Part shown: positions 28,537 to 33,886 of the stretch, in pieces
How the letters are laid out: every line of letters begins with the position of its first letter
Numbering within the stretch: position 1 is the first letter of the stretch
Assembly: GCF_014077095.1 (NCBI RefSeq)
Contig: NZ_JACGVG010000036.1
Span: forward strand, 248,001 to 312,000
Direction: 5' to 3'
DNA: 64,000 bases
Source of the DNA: Colwellia sp. MB02u-6
GTDB lineage: Bacteria; Pseudomonadota; Gammaproteobacteria; Enterobacterales; Alteromonadaceae
Notes under the pieces: generated by a model
Seen by the model: only the letters and a program-made list of their open reading frames with translations
Told to the model about the DNA's origin: nothing
The model's database searches: none
Position numbers and translations under genes: made by a program

Positions 28537-28605
28537 ATGAAACAATATAGTTCAATGATTATTAACGTCCTCATCGTGGTGATTCTTAAATCGCCGCGGG
28601 GGTAA
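28537..28605 (+). CDS. ilvL: Leader peptide of the ilv operon, 22 residues
   Basis: A short frame ATG 28537 to TAA 28605 encodes MKQYSSMIINVLIVVILKS plus PRG. Nine of 22 residues are isoleucine, valine or leucine, and they are clustered in residues 8-17, as in attenuation leader peptides. The last codons (CCG CGG GGG) form the 5' arm of the predicted antiterminator, so a ribosome that finishes the peptide would cover that arm while one stalled at Ile/Val/Leu codons would leave it free. It lies 205 bp before ilvG. Its own ribosome site is weak. The sequence differs from E. coli IlvL but the logic is the same. Confidence 0.87.
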   Translation: MKQYSSMIINVLIVVILKSPRG

Positions 28606-28676
28606 TTGTTGAGCTAAAGAAAATAAAAAATCTTAAAATAACAAACCCCCCGCTTCGCAAGGACCGGGGGGTTTGT
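28596..28676 (+). promoter_or_regulatory. Transcription attenuator of the ilvGMEDA operon
   Basis: Terminator: a perfect 12-bp stem, arms 28641-28652 and 28665-28676, 12-nt loop, with the GGGGGG/CCCCCC core; the following tract (CGTTATT) is only moderately T-rich. Antiterminator: GCGGGGG at 28596-28602, inside the end of the leader peptide, can pair with CCCCCGC at 28647-28653, the terminator's 5' arm, and flanking TTGTT/AACA can extend it. The two pairings exclude each other. This fits ribosome-mediated attenuation by charged branched-chain tRNAs. Pairing is read by eye, without energy calculation. Confidence 0.85.
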
Positions 28677-28810
28677 CGTTATTAAAACGCGCGTAGCGCA
28701 TAAACATTATTAACTTTTGGGAGCATACTTGTACATCACAACATAGTTTCAGGGTATTATGAAAATATACAACCCATGAATAAAATGTGAGTGCATAGTA
28801 AAACAAAGAC

Positions 28811-30475
28811 ATGACCAATGAAAAGAAATTAACCGGCGCAGGCTTATTATTTAACGTGCTAGAGCAGCATGGCGTTGAGCATGTTTTTGGCTACCCGGGT
28901 GGCGCAATAATGCCAATCTACGATGCGCTTTACGATAGTAAAGTGGAGCACTTTTTGTGTCGACATGAGCAAGGTGCGGCATTTTCTGCCGTAGGTTACG
29001 CCAGAGCGTCCGGTAAAGTCGGTGTCTGCTTTGCCACATCAGGTCCAGGCGCGACTAACTTGATCACCGGCCTGGCTGATGCCTTAGCAGATTCAATTCC
29101 TATTGTTGCCATTACTGGGCAGGTAGCCACGGCTGCTATGGGCTCTGATGCCTTTCAAGAAATTGATATTTTTGGTTTATCACTTGCCTGTACTAAACAC
29201 TCTTTTCAAGTTACCGATATTAATGATTTAGAAAAAGTGCTACACCAAGCCTTTGCTATTGCGCTAGAAGGCAGACAAGGGCCAGTATTAGTTGATATTC
29301 CTAAAGATATTCAAATCACAGAAGTTAACCGCTGTTTAGATAAATTAGTCAACTTAGAAAACAAAGTGAAATTACCGCCCGCCAACGTGGGTAGTGCTAT
29401 CGCCTTATTAAATCAAGCCAAGCAACCTATTCTCTATGTCGGCGGTGGGGTCGGCATGGCCAATGCTATCGACGAGTTACGAGATTTTGCTACAACAACA
29501 GGTTTGCCGAGCGTTTCCACCCTCAAAGGTTTAGGCGCCATTGACCCTGAAGATGAAAATTACCTTGGCATGTTGGGTATGCATGGTACTAAGGCGGCGA
29601 ATATCGCGGTACAAGAATGTGATTTGTTGATTGCCGTAGGGGCACGTTTTGATGATCGCGTTACGGGTAAATTAAATGAATTTGCGCCACATGCGAAAGT
29701 GATTCATTTTGATATTGATACCTCAGAAATTAATAAGCGAAGAATTGCTGATGCATCAATATTAGGCGACTTAAAGGTTAATTTACCTGCGCTAGCTATT
29801 CCATTAGCCATCAAACCTTGGCAAGCCGTCTGTCACGAGATGAATAACAACTTTGCTTGGGATTATAACCATCCAGGAGAGTTAATTTTTGCGCCTGCCG
29901 TGTTAAAAGAAATTAGTGATAAAATGCCAAAAAATAGCTGTGTAACAACCGATGTTGGACAGCATCAAATGTGGGCAGCACAGCACATGGTGTTTGATGA
30001 CCCAAGTAACTTTTTAACCAGTGCCGGTATGGGAACCATGGGCTTTGGTATACCCGCAGCAGTGGGCGCACAAGTGAGTCGGCCAACAGACTGTATTATT
30101 GCCGTTTCCGGTGACGGCTCTTTTATGATGAATGTGCAGGAGTTGTCAACGATTAAGCGTTTTCAATTGCCTGTTAAAATTGTACTTATTGATAATGCCA
30201 AGTTAGGCATGGTGCGCCAATGGCAAGACCTATTTTTCAATGGTCGATTAAGTGAAACCGATTTAGCTGATAACCCTGACTTTATTATGCTAGCCAATGC
30301 CTTTGATATTAAAGCAAAAATGATCACCAAAAAGTCACAAGTAAGCGCTGCCATCGAAGAAATGCTTGAGCATGACGGGCCTTACTTGTTACAAGTTAAA
30401 ATTGATGCACAAGAAAATGTCTGGCCACTGGTACCGCCGAACACTGCTAACGATAAAATGATGGAGAGTACCTAA
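28811..30475 (+). CDS. ilvG: Acetolactate synthase II, large catalytic subunit
   Basis: Joins pyruvate with pyruvate or 2-oxobutyrate to give acetolactate or acetohydroxybutyrate, using thiamine diphosphate, FAD and magnesium. In 554 residues: N-terminal TPP domain with [15 protein letters not shown] and the catalytic glutamate in CRHEQGAAF, the FAD/middle domain ([11 protein letters not shown]), and the C-terminal TPP motif GDGSFMMN (from Gly434). The frame is intact, unlike ilvG of E. coli K-12. It heads ilvGMEDA after the attenuator, and its stop is immediately followed by the ilvM start. Confidence 0.97.
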
Positions 30476-30718
30476 ATGAATAATTATCAATTAATGATAA
30501 CAGCGGATGATAAGCAGGTGGTACTTGAGCGCATTTTACAAGTGACTCGCTATCGCGGTTTTTTAATCAATGGTATAAACGCAAAAGTTAACACGGGTAC
30601 TAACATAGGCACCATTGAGTTATTGGTCAGAAGCGAACGTCCGATTGAACTTTTGGTGGATCAAATTAATAAACTGATCGACATCAAAGAAGTCAAGATA
30701 GACAATCACGCATCATAG
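30476..30718 (+). CDS. ilvM: Acetolactate synthase II, small regulatory subunit
   Basis: An 80-residue ACT-domain subunit that stabilises and tunes the IlvG enzyme. The sequence shows the ACT pattern: strand (YQLMITADDK), helix with VLERILQVTRYRGFLINGINA, a central strand (GTIELLVRSERP), and a second helix (LLVDQINKLIDIKEVKI). Its ATG follows the ilvG stop with no gap and GGAGAG lies within the end of ilvG as ribosome site. The length is as in E. coli IlvM (87 aa). Confidence 0.93.
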   Translation: MNNYQLMITADDKQVVLERILQVTRYRGFLINGINAKVNTGTNIGTIELLVRSERPIELLVDQINKLIDIKEVKIDNHAS

Positions 30719-30782: not shown

Positions 30783-31709
30783 ATGGCAAAAGTTAACGCA
30801 GAATTAATTTGGTTTAATGGAGAACTTATGCCGTGGCAAAATGCTACGGTGCATGTCATGAGCCATGCTTTACATTACGGCTCATCAGTCTTTGAAGGTA
30901 TTCGTGCTTATAATACTCACAAAGGTACTTGTATTTTTCGCTTAGAAGAGCATATCGACCGTTTATTTGATTCAGCCAAAATTTATCGCATGAACATCCC
31001 CTTCACGAAAGCAGAAATCATTCAAGCGTGCAAAGATGCCGTCGTAAAAAACAATTTGAAATCAGCCTACTTAAGACCCTTAGCCTTTTTAGGTGATATT
31101 GGTATGGGTCTTCGCCCACCGATTGACGCCTTAGCTGATGTTATGATTGCCGCCTTTAGCTGGGAAGCCTACTTAGGTGCTGATGCCATTGAAAATGGTG
31201 TTGAAGTGGGCGTGTCAAGTTGGAACAGACTTGCTCCTAATACTATGCCAACCGCAGCAAAAGCCGGCGGTAACTATTTGTCTTCACAGCTAATTTCTAC
31301 TGAAGCCGCTCGTCATGGCTATGCCGAAGGTGTGGCTTTAGATGTTAATAACATGGTCAGTGAAGGCGCAGGTCAAAATTTATTTTTAATTCGCAAAGGG
31401 GTTATTTATACCCCGCCAGGTACCGCCTCTATTTTACAAGGTTTGACCCGTGACACCGTATTTGTCCTTGCCAAGCAGTTAGGCTATGAAGTGCGTGAAG
31501 AATCAATATCTCGTGAATCTTTATACCTCGCTGATGAATTTTTCATGTGTGGCACCGCAACTGAAGTGGTTCCTGTAAAGTCAGTCGATGGTTTACCTGT
31601 GGGTAATGGTGCGCGTGGCCCTATTACTAAAGCACTACAAGAAGCATTTTTTGGTATTTTTGATGGTAGTACCAAAGTGCCTGAAGGTTGGTTAGACAAG
31701 GTAGAATAA
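30783..31709 (+). CDS. ilvE: Branched-chain amino acid aminotransferase
   Basis: Last step of isoleucine, valine and leucine synthesis: transfers the amino group from glutamate to the branched oxo acids, using PLP. The 308 residues belong to fold-IV transaminases: ALHYGSSVFEGIRAY, then the PLP lysine in PTAAKAGGNYL (Lys160), EGAGQNLFLIRKGV and the phosphate-binding GTATEV near the C-terminus. A good ribosome site (TTAGGAATAAAA) precedes it. It lies 64 bp after ilvM and is followed by a 277-bp gap before the ilvD remnant. Confidence 0.96.
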   Translation: MAKVNAELIWFNGELMPWQNATVHVMSHALHYGSSVFEGIRAYNTHKGTCIFRLEEHIDRLFDSAKIYRMNIPFTKAEIIQACKDAVVKNNLKSAYLRPLAFLGDIGMGLRPPIDALADVMIAAFSWEAYLGADAIENGVEVGVSSWNRLAPNTMPTAAKAGGNYLSSQLISTEAARHGYAEGVALDVNNMVSEGAGQNLFLIRKGVIYTPPGTASILQGLTRDTVFVLAKQLGYEVREESISRESLYLADEFFMCGTATEVVPVKSVDGLPVGNGARGPITKALQEAFFGIFDGSTKVPEGWLDKVE

Positions 31710-31842
31710 AGCTTAATTTTCAAAGCTAAATAAACTCAATCTGTATTTAGCACTCGCTGATTTCACCCCCTACCCTCCATGTTAGGCGGGCTTTCGTAGT
31801 GTGGCGATATGCCGATATTAACTTGATATAAATCAATTAAGT

Positions 31843-31874
31843 GTTCAGCGTTTTTCGCTTGATAAACGCTGAAC
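31843..31874. repeat. Hairpin in the ilvE-ilvD gap
   Basis: An exact 11-bp inverted repeat (31843-31853 with 31864-31874) around a 10-nt loop. No T-run follows. It may moderate transcription or RNA decay between ilvE and the downstream part of the operon. The gap 31710-31986 also ends with AGGAACTAAGGTC as ribosome site for the ilvD frame. Confidence 0.55.
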
Positions 31875-31986
31875 AACTCCAAAAAATAATAGTTATGTTA
31901 AAAGCTCATTGTCGAGTGATTTTTTAACATAATTTTTAACATTTATCGCGCTTATTAATAGCCATATATATACAGGAACTAAGGTC

Positions 31987-32313
31987 ATGCCAAAATTAAG
32001 ATCAGCAACTTCTACTCAAGGCCGAAATATGGCTGGAGCTCTTGCGCTTTGGCGCGCTACAGGGATGACAGATGGTGATTTCGGTAAACCTATTATTGCG
32101 GTTGTGAACTCTTTTACCCAATTTGTACCCGGCCATGTGCATTTGAAAGATATGGGTGATAGCGGCATGCTTTATAGCTTGCCATCACGCGATTTAATTG
32201 CCGATTCAGTGGACTACATGATCAACGCCCACTGTGCTGATGCCATGATCCAAGGCGCGGTGCGTAATCGTGAATTACTGGATGGGAATTTTAATGGTGA
32301 CAACAATGAATGA
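31987..32313 (+). pseudogene. ilvD: Dihydroxy-acid dehydratase reduced to a 108-codon in-frame remnant
   Basis: The frame begins like full IlvD ([18 protein letters not shown], through [12 protein letters not shown], 57 residues) but then jumps to [20 protein letters not shown], jumps again after NAHCADAM to IQGA, and again to the C-terminal [10 protein letters not shown] tail. Compared with the roughly 616-residue E. coli protein, about 29, 52 and over 400 residues are missing. All three joints keep frame, at about 32152-32160, 32239-32247 and 32253-32259. The CxxxC/CPTCGSC iron-sulfur ligands and the active-site lysine region are gone, so no dehydratase activity is possible. Start codon, ribosome site and overlap with ilvA are retained. 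Confidence 0.92.
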
Positions 32314-33886
32314 TGCTGAACAAGTAGCATTAGTAAAAGCCCAGGCTATACAAGGCCAAGGTTTAAACTATTTACGCAAGATATTACTTGCGCCGGTTTA
32401 TGATGTGGCGATTGAATCACCGCTAACGCCATTAACTAAGTTATCAGCACGTTTAGGTAATGAAATTTTTCTTAAACGAGAAGATCAACAACCGGTACAC
32501 TCTTTTAAATTGCGTGGTGCTTATAACAAATTAGTCAACTTGTCTGAGCAGCAATGCTTAGATGGGGTTATTGCTGCATCTGCAGGTAATCACGCACAAG
32601 GCTTAGCATTAGCGGCGAATAAATTAGGTGTTAAAGCAACCATTGTCATGCCTATTACCACACCTGATATCAAGGTGGATAATGTACGGCGTTTTGGTGC
32701 CGATGTGCGCTTAGTGGGTAAGAACTTTAATGAGGCGCAACAAGCCGCGATAGCCTATGCCCAAGCCGAAAATAAAACTGTAGTACCGCCATTTGATGAT
32801 GTTGACATTATTGCTGGCCAAGGTACGGTGGCAAAAGAGTTATTACAACAACACCCTCGCATGGATGTGGTGTTTATTCCTGTCGGTGGTGGTGGCTTAT
32901 TAGCAGGCATGTCAGTTTACCTAAAACAATTACAACCTCATATTAAAATAATTGGTGTTGAAGCCGAAGATTCTGCCTGTTTAAAAGCAGCATTTGCCGC
33001 CGGAAAACCGGTTGATTTGGACCAAGTTGGCTTATTTGCTGATGGTGTAGCCGTTAAGCGCATTGGTGAGCATACCTTTGATTTAATTAAGCATTACTGT
33101 GACGATGTCATAACAGTGACTACCGATGAAATTTGTGCGTCGATAAAAGATATTTTTGAACAAACGCGAGTCATTGCAGAACCCGCCGGCGCATTATCCT
33201 TAGCGGGATTACAAAAATATTGTCACACTAGTCAAGGTAACGAGTCTTTGATCGCGATTCTGTCTGGCGCCAATATGAACTTTCATACCTTGCGATATAT
33301 CTCAGAACGTTGTGAATTAAGTGAGCAAAAAGAAGCCGTATTTGCGGTCAAAATTCCAGAAGAAAAAGGGAGTTTTAGAAACTTTTGTAAAGCACTTGCT
33401 GGACGAGTGATCACTGAATTTAATTACCGTTATGCCGACAACGCTGAGCTAACAAGCCAAACGCAACGTGCCAATATTTTTGTTGGTGTGCGCCTAAGTG
33501 GTGAGGCTACTGACCGAAAAAATTTAACCCAAAGCTTGCAGCAACAAGATTATGAATTAGCTGACTTTACGGAAAATGAATTGGCTAAGCTGCATGTGAG
33601 ATACATGATTGGCGGTAAAAATGAATTGTCAGCACAAGAACGTATTTTTCGCTTTCAATTTCCTGAATATCCGGGCGCGTTAGAGAAGTTTCTCGATACT
33701 TTGGGTGAGCATTACAACATTACCTTGTTCCATTATCGTAACCACGGTGCAGCTTTTGGCCAAGTGTTAGCCGGATTTGAAGTACAAAAAACACAGGAAA
33801 CTGATTTTTTTGCGCACTTAAAAGCGCTAGATTATGAGTGGCAAGAAGAAACGGACAACCAGGCTTATCAAGCCTTTCTCACCTGA
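32306..33886 (+). CDS. ilvA: Threonine deaminase (biosynthetic threonine dehydratase)
   Basis: Converts threonine to 2-oxobutyrate and ammonia, the committed step to isoleucine. About 526 residues: PLP catalytic domain with the lysine in HSFKLRGAY (Lys68), SAGNHAQG, and the phosphate loop VGGGGLLAG; then two ACT-like regulatory domains (from about residue 345 and 440) that bind isoleucine and valine in the family. Start at 32306 is preceded by GGTGA at 5 nt; another ATG lies at 32294. Both overlap the stop of the ilvD remnant (32311-32313), so coupling is likely. A terminator follows. Confidence 0.95.

Follow-up and report, generated by a model that had tools for sequence, protein, structure and literature searches.

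Why does an enzyme gene that has lost most of its length keep an open reading frame? This question is raised by the ilvD gene of Colwellia sp. MB02u-6, which lies in a window of 64,000 nucleotides (the whole stretch of DNA analysed here, G000:C36:248001-312000). The genome comprises 4.0 Mb in 42 contigs, and its completeness is given as 100%.

The Operon

The gene order at the locus is an ilvL-like leader, ilvG, ilvM, ilvE, the shortened ilvD (termed mini-ilvD), and ilvA, and all parts mapped at this locus lie on the forward strand. The leader peptide, MKQYSSMIINVLIVVILKSPRG (28537–28605), is rich in Ile, Leu, and Val and is followed by a G+C-rich hairpin from about 28643. Together, judging from their sequence, the peptide and hairpin (28537–28680) are likely an attenuator. 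The sole Rfam matches are found at this ilvL attenuator and after ilvA, all of them below the curated scores. From their wording and operon order, we take the next three open frames to be ilvG (28811–30475, 554 codons), ilvM (30476–30718, 80 codons), and ilvE (30783–31709, 308 codons). Mini-ilvD occupies 31987–32313 and is recognized as a 108-codon in-frame remnant of native ilvD by its open frame, by its relatives, and by the NCBIfam model NF009103. The 526-codon frame that follows at 32306–33886 is presumably ilvA (threonine dehydratase), a name given from operon position and family wording.

What Remains of ilvD

Mini-ilvD descends from native ilvD, as its place in the operon and its match to the intact ilvD of a related genome, G008, indicate (85% DNA identity around the start). 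The two nearest intact genes, in G008 and G005, have 623 and 624 codons. Relative to G008, 515 codons are missing, close to the 500 or so residues estimated in the preliminary description, and the gene has shrunk to about a fifth of its original size. The remnant retains the parts that were recognized in that description, namely the IlvD start, a central block, a block of four residues, and the C-terminal end, and its frame is open from native start to native end. The four-residue block, IQGA, corresponds to codons 169–172 of the intact G008 gene.

These parts meet at three joints. Joint 1 lies on the 6-bp repeat TATGGG (32151–32156), where 87 bp (29 codons) were removed. It is seen only in the window's genome; another genome, G012, still has both parent copies, and the best single-deletion split against it carries 6 bp of repeat. 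Joint 2 lies on the 10-bp repeat TGATGCCATG (32238–32247), where 156 bp (52 codons) were removed. This repeat is the longest in the G005 ilvD and one of three of at least 10 bp in the G008 ilvD, and its copies share the same codon phase. Joint 3 lies on the imperfect repeat AAGGNGCNG (32252–32260), where about 1305 bp (435 codons) were removed, and its copies share 8 of 9 letters in both G008 and G005. Joints 2 and 3 are common to G012. The parental copies had earlier been deduced from E. coli IlvD and can now be seen in the genes of relatives. Comparison with these intact genes thus bears out the placement of the joints at short repeats, and corrects the repeats themselves by one or a few bases: ATGGGT, first proposed for joint 1, has its final T in one copy only, and GGCGCGG is not an exact repeat at joint 3.

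Mini-ilvD lacks both conserved cluster cysteines (native C122 and C195); in a check of this cluster pair, Cys83 was the only cysteine left in the 108 residues. According to PMC9543379, both cluster cysteines are conserved in all dihydroxy-acid dehydratases (DHADs). Because both are absent, and judging by family knowledge, the product of mini-ilvD would not be capable of acting as a dehydratase. The remnant also falls below the DHAD cut-offs of NF009103 (155 versus 710 bits) and TIGR00110 (93 versus 618 bits). It therefore shows one mark of a pseudogene, the loss of catalytic residues, and does not show another, a broken frame, since the frame is open in both species that carry the collapse. 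An AlphaFold model of the product has no confident fold (pLDDT 42), with only 4 aligned sequences available.

A Sister Species with an Intermediate Form

The comparison of sister strains for intermediate forms, which had been suggested at the outset, yielded one. G012 is Colwellia sp. MB3u-45, a sister species, and its ilvD has 137 codons, with joints 2 and 3 and without deletion 1. This means that deletions 2 and 3 predate the species split, and that deletion 1 is younger. The collapsed ilvD is thus not confined to one genome.

Among 17 genomes of the genus, 15 have a long native ilvD with an open frame of 619–646 codons, the exceptions being the window's genome and G012. The DNA pattern of the joints occurs once in a sample of 196 family genomes that did not include G012, the match being to the window's own genome, and in a single record of the genome collection, NZ_JACGVC010000053.1, from Colwellia sp. 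MB3u-45. Across the order, a native-type ilvD match is present in 362 of 394 genomes (E 1e-25), and every ilvD frame has at least 609 codons among the matches listed, which include neither the window's genome nor the weakest matches. When 50 further genomes with weaker matches were searched again, the ilvD frame had at least 608 codons in 48. The remaining two are G302, in which a 91-codon ilvD runs into a contig edge, and G335, an 82% complete genome in which the ilvD has 119 codons and the query is matched to residue 105 only, probably also at a contig edge. In G001 (G001:C1:4582700-4590300), the native ilvD as sequenced is shifted out of frame close to its end and has only 598 codons, through either a mutation or a sequencing error. 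A literature search that covered few of the subscription journals found no case of a collapsed ilvD or of polarity-driven in-frame gene decay, and no paper on strain MB3u-45 was found.

An assembly artefact hiding a full ilvD at this locus is barely conceivable. Both assemblies are drafts, of 42 and about 60 contigs. On the other hand, joints 2 and 3 recur in both genomes, where the surrounding synonymous divergence is normal, and a family search of the window's own genome, at 100% completeness, found no other native ilvD. For joints 2 and 3 in particular, an artefact is very unlikely because the sister genome carries both.

Horizontal passage of the collapsed allele from one species to the other was also considered and rejected. 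Synonymous differences between the remnants are found ahead of joint 2 (codon 81), within joint 3 (codon 91), and past joint 3 (codon 100), and the dS of the remnant equals that of the flanking genes.

A Second, Predicted Dehydratase Elsewhere in the Genome

The window's genome has four matches to the IlvD/Edd family: the remnant, two edd genes (phosphogluconate dehydratases, 986 and 973 bits versus a cut-off of 708), and a gene termed IlvD2 at G000:C38:345399-347075. One edd lies on the contig of IlvD2, about 20 kb away, and the other adjoins genes that we take, from their reading, to encode glucokinase, 6-phosphogluconolactonase, and glucose-6-phosphate dehydrogenase.

IlvD2 is 41% identical to native IlvD in pairwise alignment and exceeds the NCBIfam cut-offs for DHAD (NF002068, 789 versus 644 bits; TIGR00110, 720 versus 618 bits). 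Its best solved relatives are chloroplast DHADs, with plant DHAD structures matched at E 2e-213. IlvD2 has a cysteine (Cys51) where native IlvD has a glycine (Gly49) at the aligned position. According to PMC9543379, cysteine versus glycine at that position marks [2Fe-2S] versus [4Fe-4S] DHADs, E. coli has the glycine, and the [4Fe-4S] enzymes are the oxygen-sensitive type. By sequence, IlvD2 would be of the [2Fe-2S] type and native IlvD of the [4Fe-4S] type, position 48 of that source having been mapped here by inference.

IlvD2 is present at 97–99% identity in 3 of the 17 genus genomes, namely the window's, G012, and G008. No close IlvD2 was found in the remaining 14, one of which is only 66% complete; their best matches are 34–37% identical. 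G008 retains both an intact native ilvD and IlvD2. Native ilvD is thus collapsed in 2 of the 17 genomes, both of which belong to the three that have IlvD2, an association with a Fisher P of 0.022, though it represents one shared event by descent. The dS of IlvD2 is 0.17 to G012 and 0.41 to G008, compared with 0.17–0.19 and 0.38–0.48 for the ilv genes, and this equality indicates that IlvD2 descended vertically and predates the collapse. Since IlvD2 occurs in both collapsed genomes and in G008, with no close copy in the other 14, native ilvD was probably redundant beside it.

The stretch around IlvD2 that is shared by the window's genome and G008 measures only about 2.07 kb (L102, L104), and outside it the neighbours differ; the 5 kb adjoining the G008 IlvD2 correspond to sequence that in the window's genome lies about 18 kb off (L038). 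Because the flanks in G008 differ from those in the other two genomes, either the gene has moved or its surroundings were rearranged.

In the wider family, a protein of the IlvD2 type (E < 1e-150) occurs in 9 of 196 genomes, the window's included. Of the other eight, G018, G177, G219, and G220 have a full native ilvD as well, and G118, G168, G189, and G205 lack one, their DHAD-like matches being limited to the IlvD2-type protein once edd-like ones are set aside. G219, from a related genus, has an IlvD2 relative (90%) beside its native ilvD, and also an ilvG-like match with one in-frame TAG (G219:C123:127727-129385).

Repeats and Reading Frame

All three removals are in frame, as first described, at 87, 156, and about 1305 bp when measured against G008, G005, and G012. 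In the preliminary description this was assigned a chance of about 1 in 27, an argument that does not hold because repeat copies inside one coding gene tend to start at the same codon position. Among direct repeats of at least 6 bp, the in-phase ones number 266 of 466 in the G008 ilvD and 290 of 465 in the G005 ilvD; the respective counts are 16 of 32 and 27 of 43 for at least 8 bp, and 3 of 3 and 1 of 1 for at least 10 bp. For repeats of at least 6 bp, the in-phase share is 57–62% in these two full ilvD genes and 63–69% in three partial ones. Cubing the shares in the classes of at least 6 and at least 8 bp gives a chance of about 0.12–0.25 that three repeat deletions all stay in frame without constraint. 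Most ilvD direct repeats being in phase, deletion phase by itself is therefore no sign of selection.

The prevalence of in-phase repeats also favours the view that mini-ilvD is an ordinary decaying pseudogene, made redundant by IlvD2, shortened by deletions at repeats, and still open by chance and for want of time. This view is considered unlikely on evidence given below. As for the two explanations offered at the outset, a constraint on the frame or one templated event, the second is excluded for all three deletions together because G012 lacks deletion 1, although deletions 2 and 3 may have been one event or two. The first is made likely by different observations: a stop that overlaps the ilvA start, a frame open in two species, and too few amino acid changes after the collapse.

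Changes after the Collapse

If the collapse was shared, all differences between the two remnants arose after it. In mini-ilvD, the window and G012 differ by 5 amino acid and 10 synonymous changes, the joint codon being left out, where the neutral expectation is about 11 amino acid changes out of 15 (P 0.001, omega 0.17). The neutral model takes its mutation spectrum from 875 fourfold sites in five flanking genes. The omega of 0.17 excludes the joint codon, and a dN/dS of 0.118 is obtained when that codon is counted as a substitution. The flanking genes have 39 amino acid and 216 synonymous changes, so that the remnant is maybe somewhat less constrained than they are (Fisher P 0.077).

The two branches were separated by parsimony, by hand, with four unplaceable synonymous sites either halved evenly or left out and with the last codon (D/E) assigned to the window branch on the endings of relatives. 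On the G012 branch, the ratio of amino acid to synonymous changes is 1:4 to 1:6 (P 0.002–0.018 under neutrality). On the window branch it is 4:2 to 4:4, which is not distinguishable from neutral (P 0.13–0.49). Four tip changes fall at residues that are invariant in 15 intact genus genes, namely K3R in G012 and R19L, H87D, and E105D in the window (residue numbers are codons of the intact gene), and V108I, which is common to both remnants, is also at an invariant residue. A further change in G012 lies at a variable residue, codon 63, which is missing in the window. Changes at invariant residues are as expected if the enzyme function is gone.

These figures divide over the pseudogene view. It accords with the neutral ratio on the window branch, with the four tip changes at invariant residues, and with a chance of about 0.68 that 15 neutral changes bring no stop; it is opposed by the pooled ratio of 5:10 (P 0.001), by the G012 branch, and by the preservation of the upstream region and of the ilvA overlap. 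Small as the numbers are, the changes speak against unrestrained decay throughout this time, and they would exceed what a pure relay of ribosomes needs.

A different way to read the low omega is that mini-IlvD has become a new small protein with its own function, for instance binding IlvD2 or another partner, and that its residues are selected. An omega of about 0.17 after the collapse, together with a dS equal to that of the flanking genes, indicates constraint on residues and not on every base. Against this stand the total of only 15 changes, with the window branch by itself compatible with neutrality; the loss of 29 codons and two radical changes (R19L and H87D) in the window's species; and a predicted structure of low confidence. 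Such a protein is accordingly rated as distinctly improbable.

The low dN/dS might also date from the time of the full enzyme, if joints 2 and 3 arose twice, recently and independently. Joint 2 would favour this, as its 10-bp repeat ranks with the longest in ilvD. Joint 3, by contrast, is on a short, imperfect repeat, with 466 pairs of at least 6 bp available in the G008 ilvD, and a double origin is extremely unlikely.

The Two Ends of the Remnant

Directly 5′ of mini-ilvD, comparison with G012 and G008 reveals a conserved block of 123 bp (31864–31986). Mismatches to G012 number 5 of 123 in the block versus 29 of 143 further upstream (Fisher P 7e-5), and mismatches to G008 number 7 in the 123-bp block versus 50 of 154 (Fisher P 1e-8). 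The more distant G005 is less alike in this region, with 24 mismatches in 111 positions and 19 gap columns. With 5 mismatches in 123 between the window and G012, the start region of the dead gene is still conserved in both carriers. The block is perhaps a leader or an internal promoter for ilvA; a consensus promoter scan upstream of mini-ilvD scored no better than shuffles. The gap between ilvE and ilvD also holds a 12-bp inverted repeat, TGTTCAGCGTTT/AAACGCTGAACA (31842–31875), which is slightly shortened in G012 and lacks its left arm in G008, and a terminator scan at this position found none.

At the other end, the stop of mini-ilvD is overlapped by 8 nt (32306–32313) by an in-frame ATG, the candidate start of ilvA. 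The sequence GGTGA, possibly the Shine-Dalgarno element of ilvA, lies inside mini-ilvD at 32296–32300. Of the 17 genus genomes, 11 have such an overlap between an in-frame ilvA ATG and the ilvD stop; it measures 4 nt in G008 and 8 nt in the other ten, and some genomes have further in-frame ATGs. GGTGA, read by eye, precedes the overlapping ATG in the other 10 overlap genomes too. The two collapsed genomes have both kept the 8-nt overlap and GGTGA, and mini-ilvD in each thus has the arrangement of a coupled upstream open reading frame, with its stop overlapping the next start. In the genomes outside this count, the ATG is 12 nt downstream in G011 and ATGs are at +13 and −14 in G002; no overlapping ATG was found in G004 and G013, which have distant ones only (+131 and +112); G001 has the early ilvD stop, and G015 is not classifiable.

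In the E. coli ilvGMEDA operon, Harms et al. are said to have described translational coupling of ilvD and ilvA in 1988. In the part of PMC12548453 that bears on such overlaps, the −8 spacing is among those enriched, coupling is weaker as overlap exceeds 4 nt, and Rho-dependent polarity is described where upstream genes go untranslated. No strong occluding RNA structure was found around the ilvA start (folding z −0.29 in the window and +1.94 in G012).

A Proposed Translated Leader for ilvA

The reading that we favour, with a probability of roughly 0.6, is that mini-ilvD, the remains of an enzyme gene displaced by IlvD2, has been kept because it acts as a translated leader for ilvA, perhaps with an extra constraint on the mini-IlvD protein itself. 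Comparison shows that IlvD2 was already present, elsewhere in the genome, in the ancestor that G008, G012, and the window's species have in common. IlvD2 would carry out the DHAD step, and the native enzyme would thereby become dispensable. Before G012 and the window's species separated, native ilvD lost 487 codons in frame at joints 2 and 3, and the window's lineage lost a further 29. The remaining need would be for ribosome traffic through the end of ilvD. Since the ilvD stop overlaps the ilvA start, termination there would deliver or favour ilvA initiation and shield the message from premature termination. Collapses that break the frame would lower ilvA expression and vanish, and those that keep it would survive. 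The product of this process would be a leader with the start signals of the dead enzyme in front and the coupling signals behind. The leader reading agrees with the succession of events, with the anatomy of the locus, and with the precedent in E. coli, and we infer that translation of mini-ilvD matters to ilvA.

Several points weigh against the leader reading. The in-frame deletions are themselves unsurprising (0.12–0.25). With no strong occluding structure and with the Shine-Dalgarno-like GGTGA, ilvA may start without coupling, and the overlap of 8 nt here exceeds the 4 nt above which coupling is reported to weaken. The absence of an overlapping ATG in G004 and G013 indicates that not every member of the genus needs coupling, and the 123-bp block upstream is poorly conserved in G005. 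Finally, a pure relay needs an open frame alone, yet amino acid changes are fewer than neutral. A fuller version, in which the enzyme gene, displaced by an oxygen-stable substitute, was turned stepwise and in frame into a small element selected both as an ilvA leader and for its residues (at least in its 137-codon form), is offered tentatively and seems unlikely to hold as a whole.

Comparison with Known Systems

The genus offers a natural series of an intact gene with its substitute, a 137-codon remnant, and a 108-codon remnant. If the fuller version above is true, a metabolic gene has been caught becoming a regulatory or small-protein gene, with all stages alive in one genus. The series opens a general question, whether operon coupling steers the decay of redundant genes by keeping their remnants in frame. 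In it, moreover, an oxygen-sensitive type of enzyme has likely been exchanged in nature for a type that is oxygen-stable. In addition, it gives reason for caution, as an open frame and a dN/dS below 1 need not imply a working enzyme of the given name.

A table in PMC9543379 includes A. thaliana, spinach, Synechocystis, and M. tuberculosis among organisms with [2Fe-2S] DHADs. IlvD2 resembles this group in aligning over its full length with plant DHAD and in having the diagnostic cysteine; it differs as a presumed replacement, its gene lying outside the window and its activity being predicted from sequence.

Pseudogenes and gene remnants that arise by deletion at direct repeats are a known kind. 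Mini-ilvD is like them in its lost catalytic residues and its deletions at direct repeats, and unlike them in that the frame, the start region, the stop/start overlap, and in part the residues have been kept in two species. It also resembles translated leader open reading frames, which are short and have a stop overlapping the next start, although here the frame is derived by deletion from a structural gene within the operon and its regulatory role is putative. The closest parallel is with the coupling in E. coli ilvGMEDA, which has the same pair of genes in the same order, with the ilvA start near or in the end of ilvD. There, the upstream partner is a working enzyme; here only 108 or 137 codons of its gene are left.
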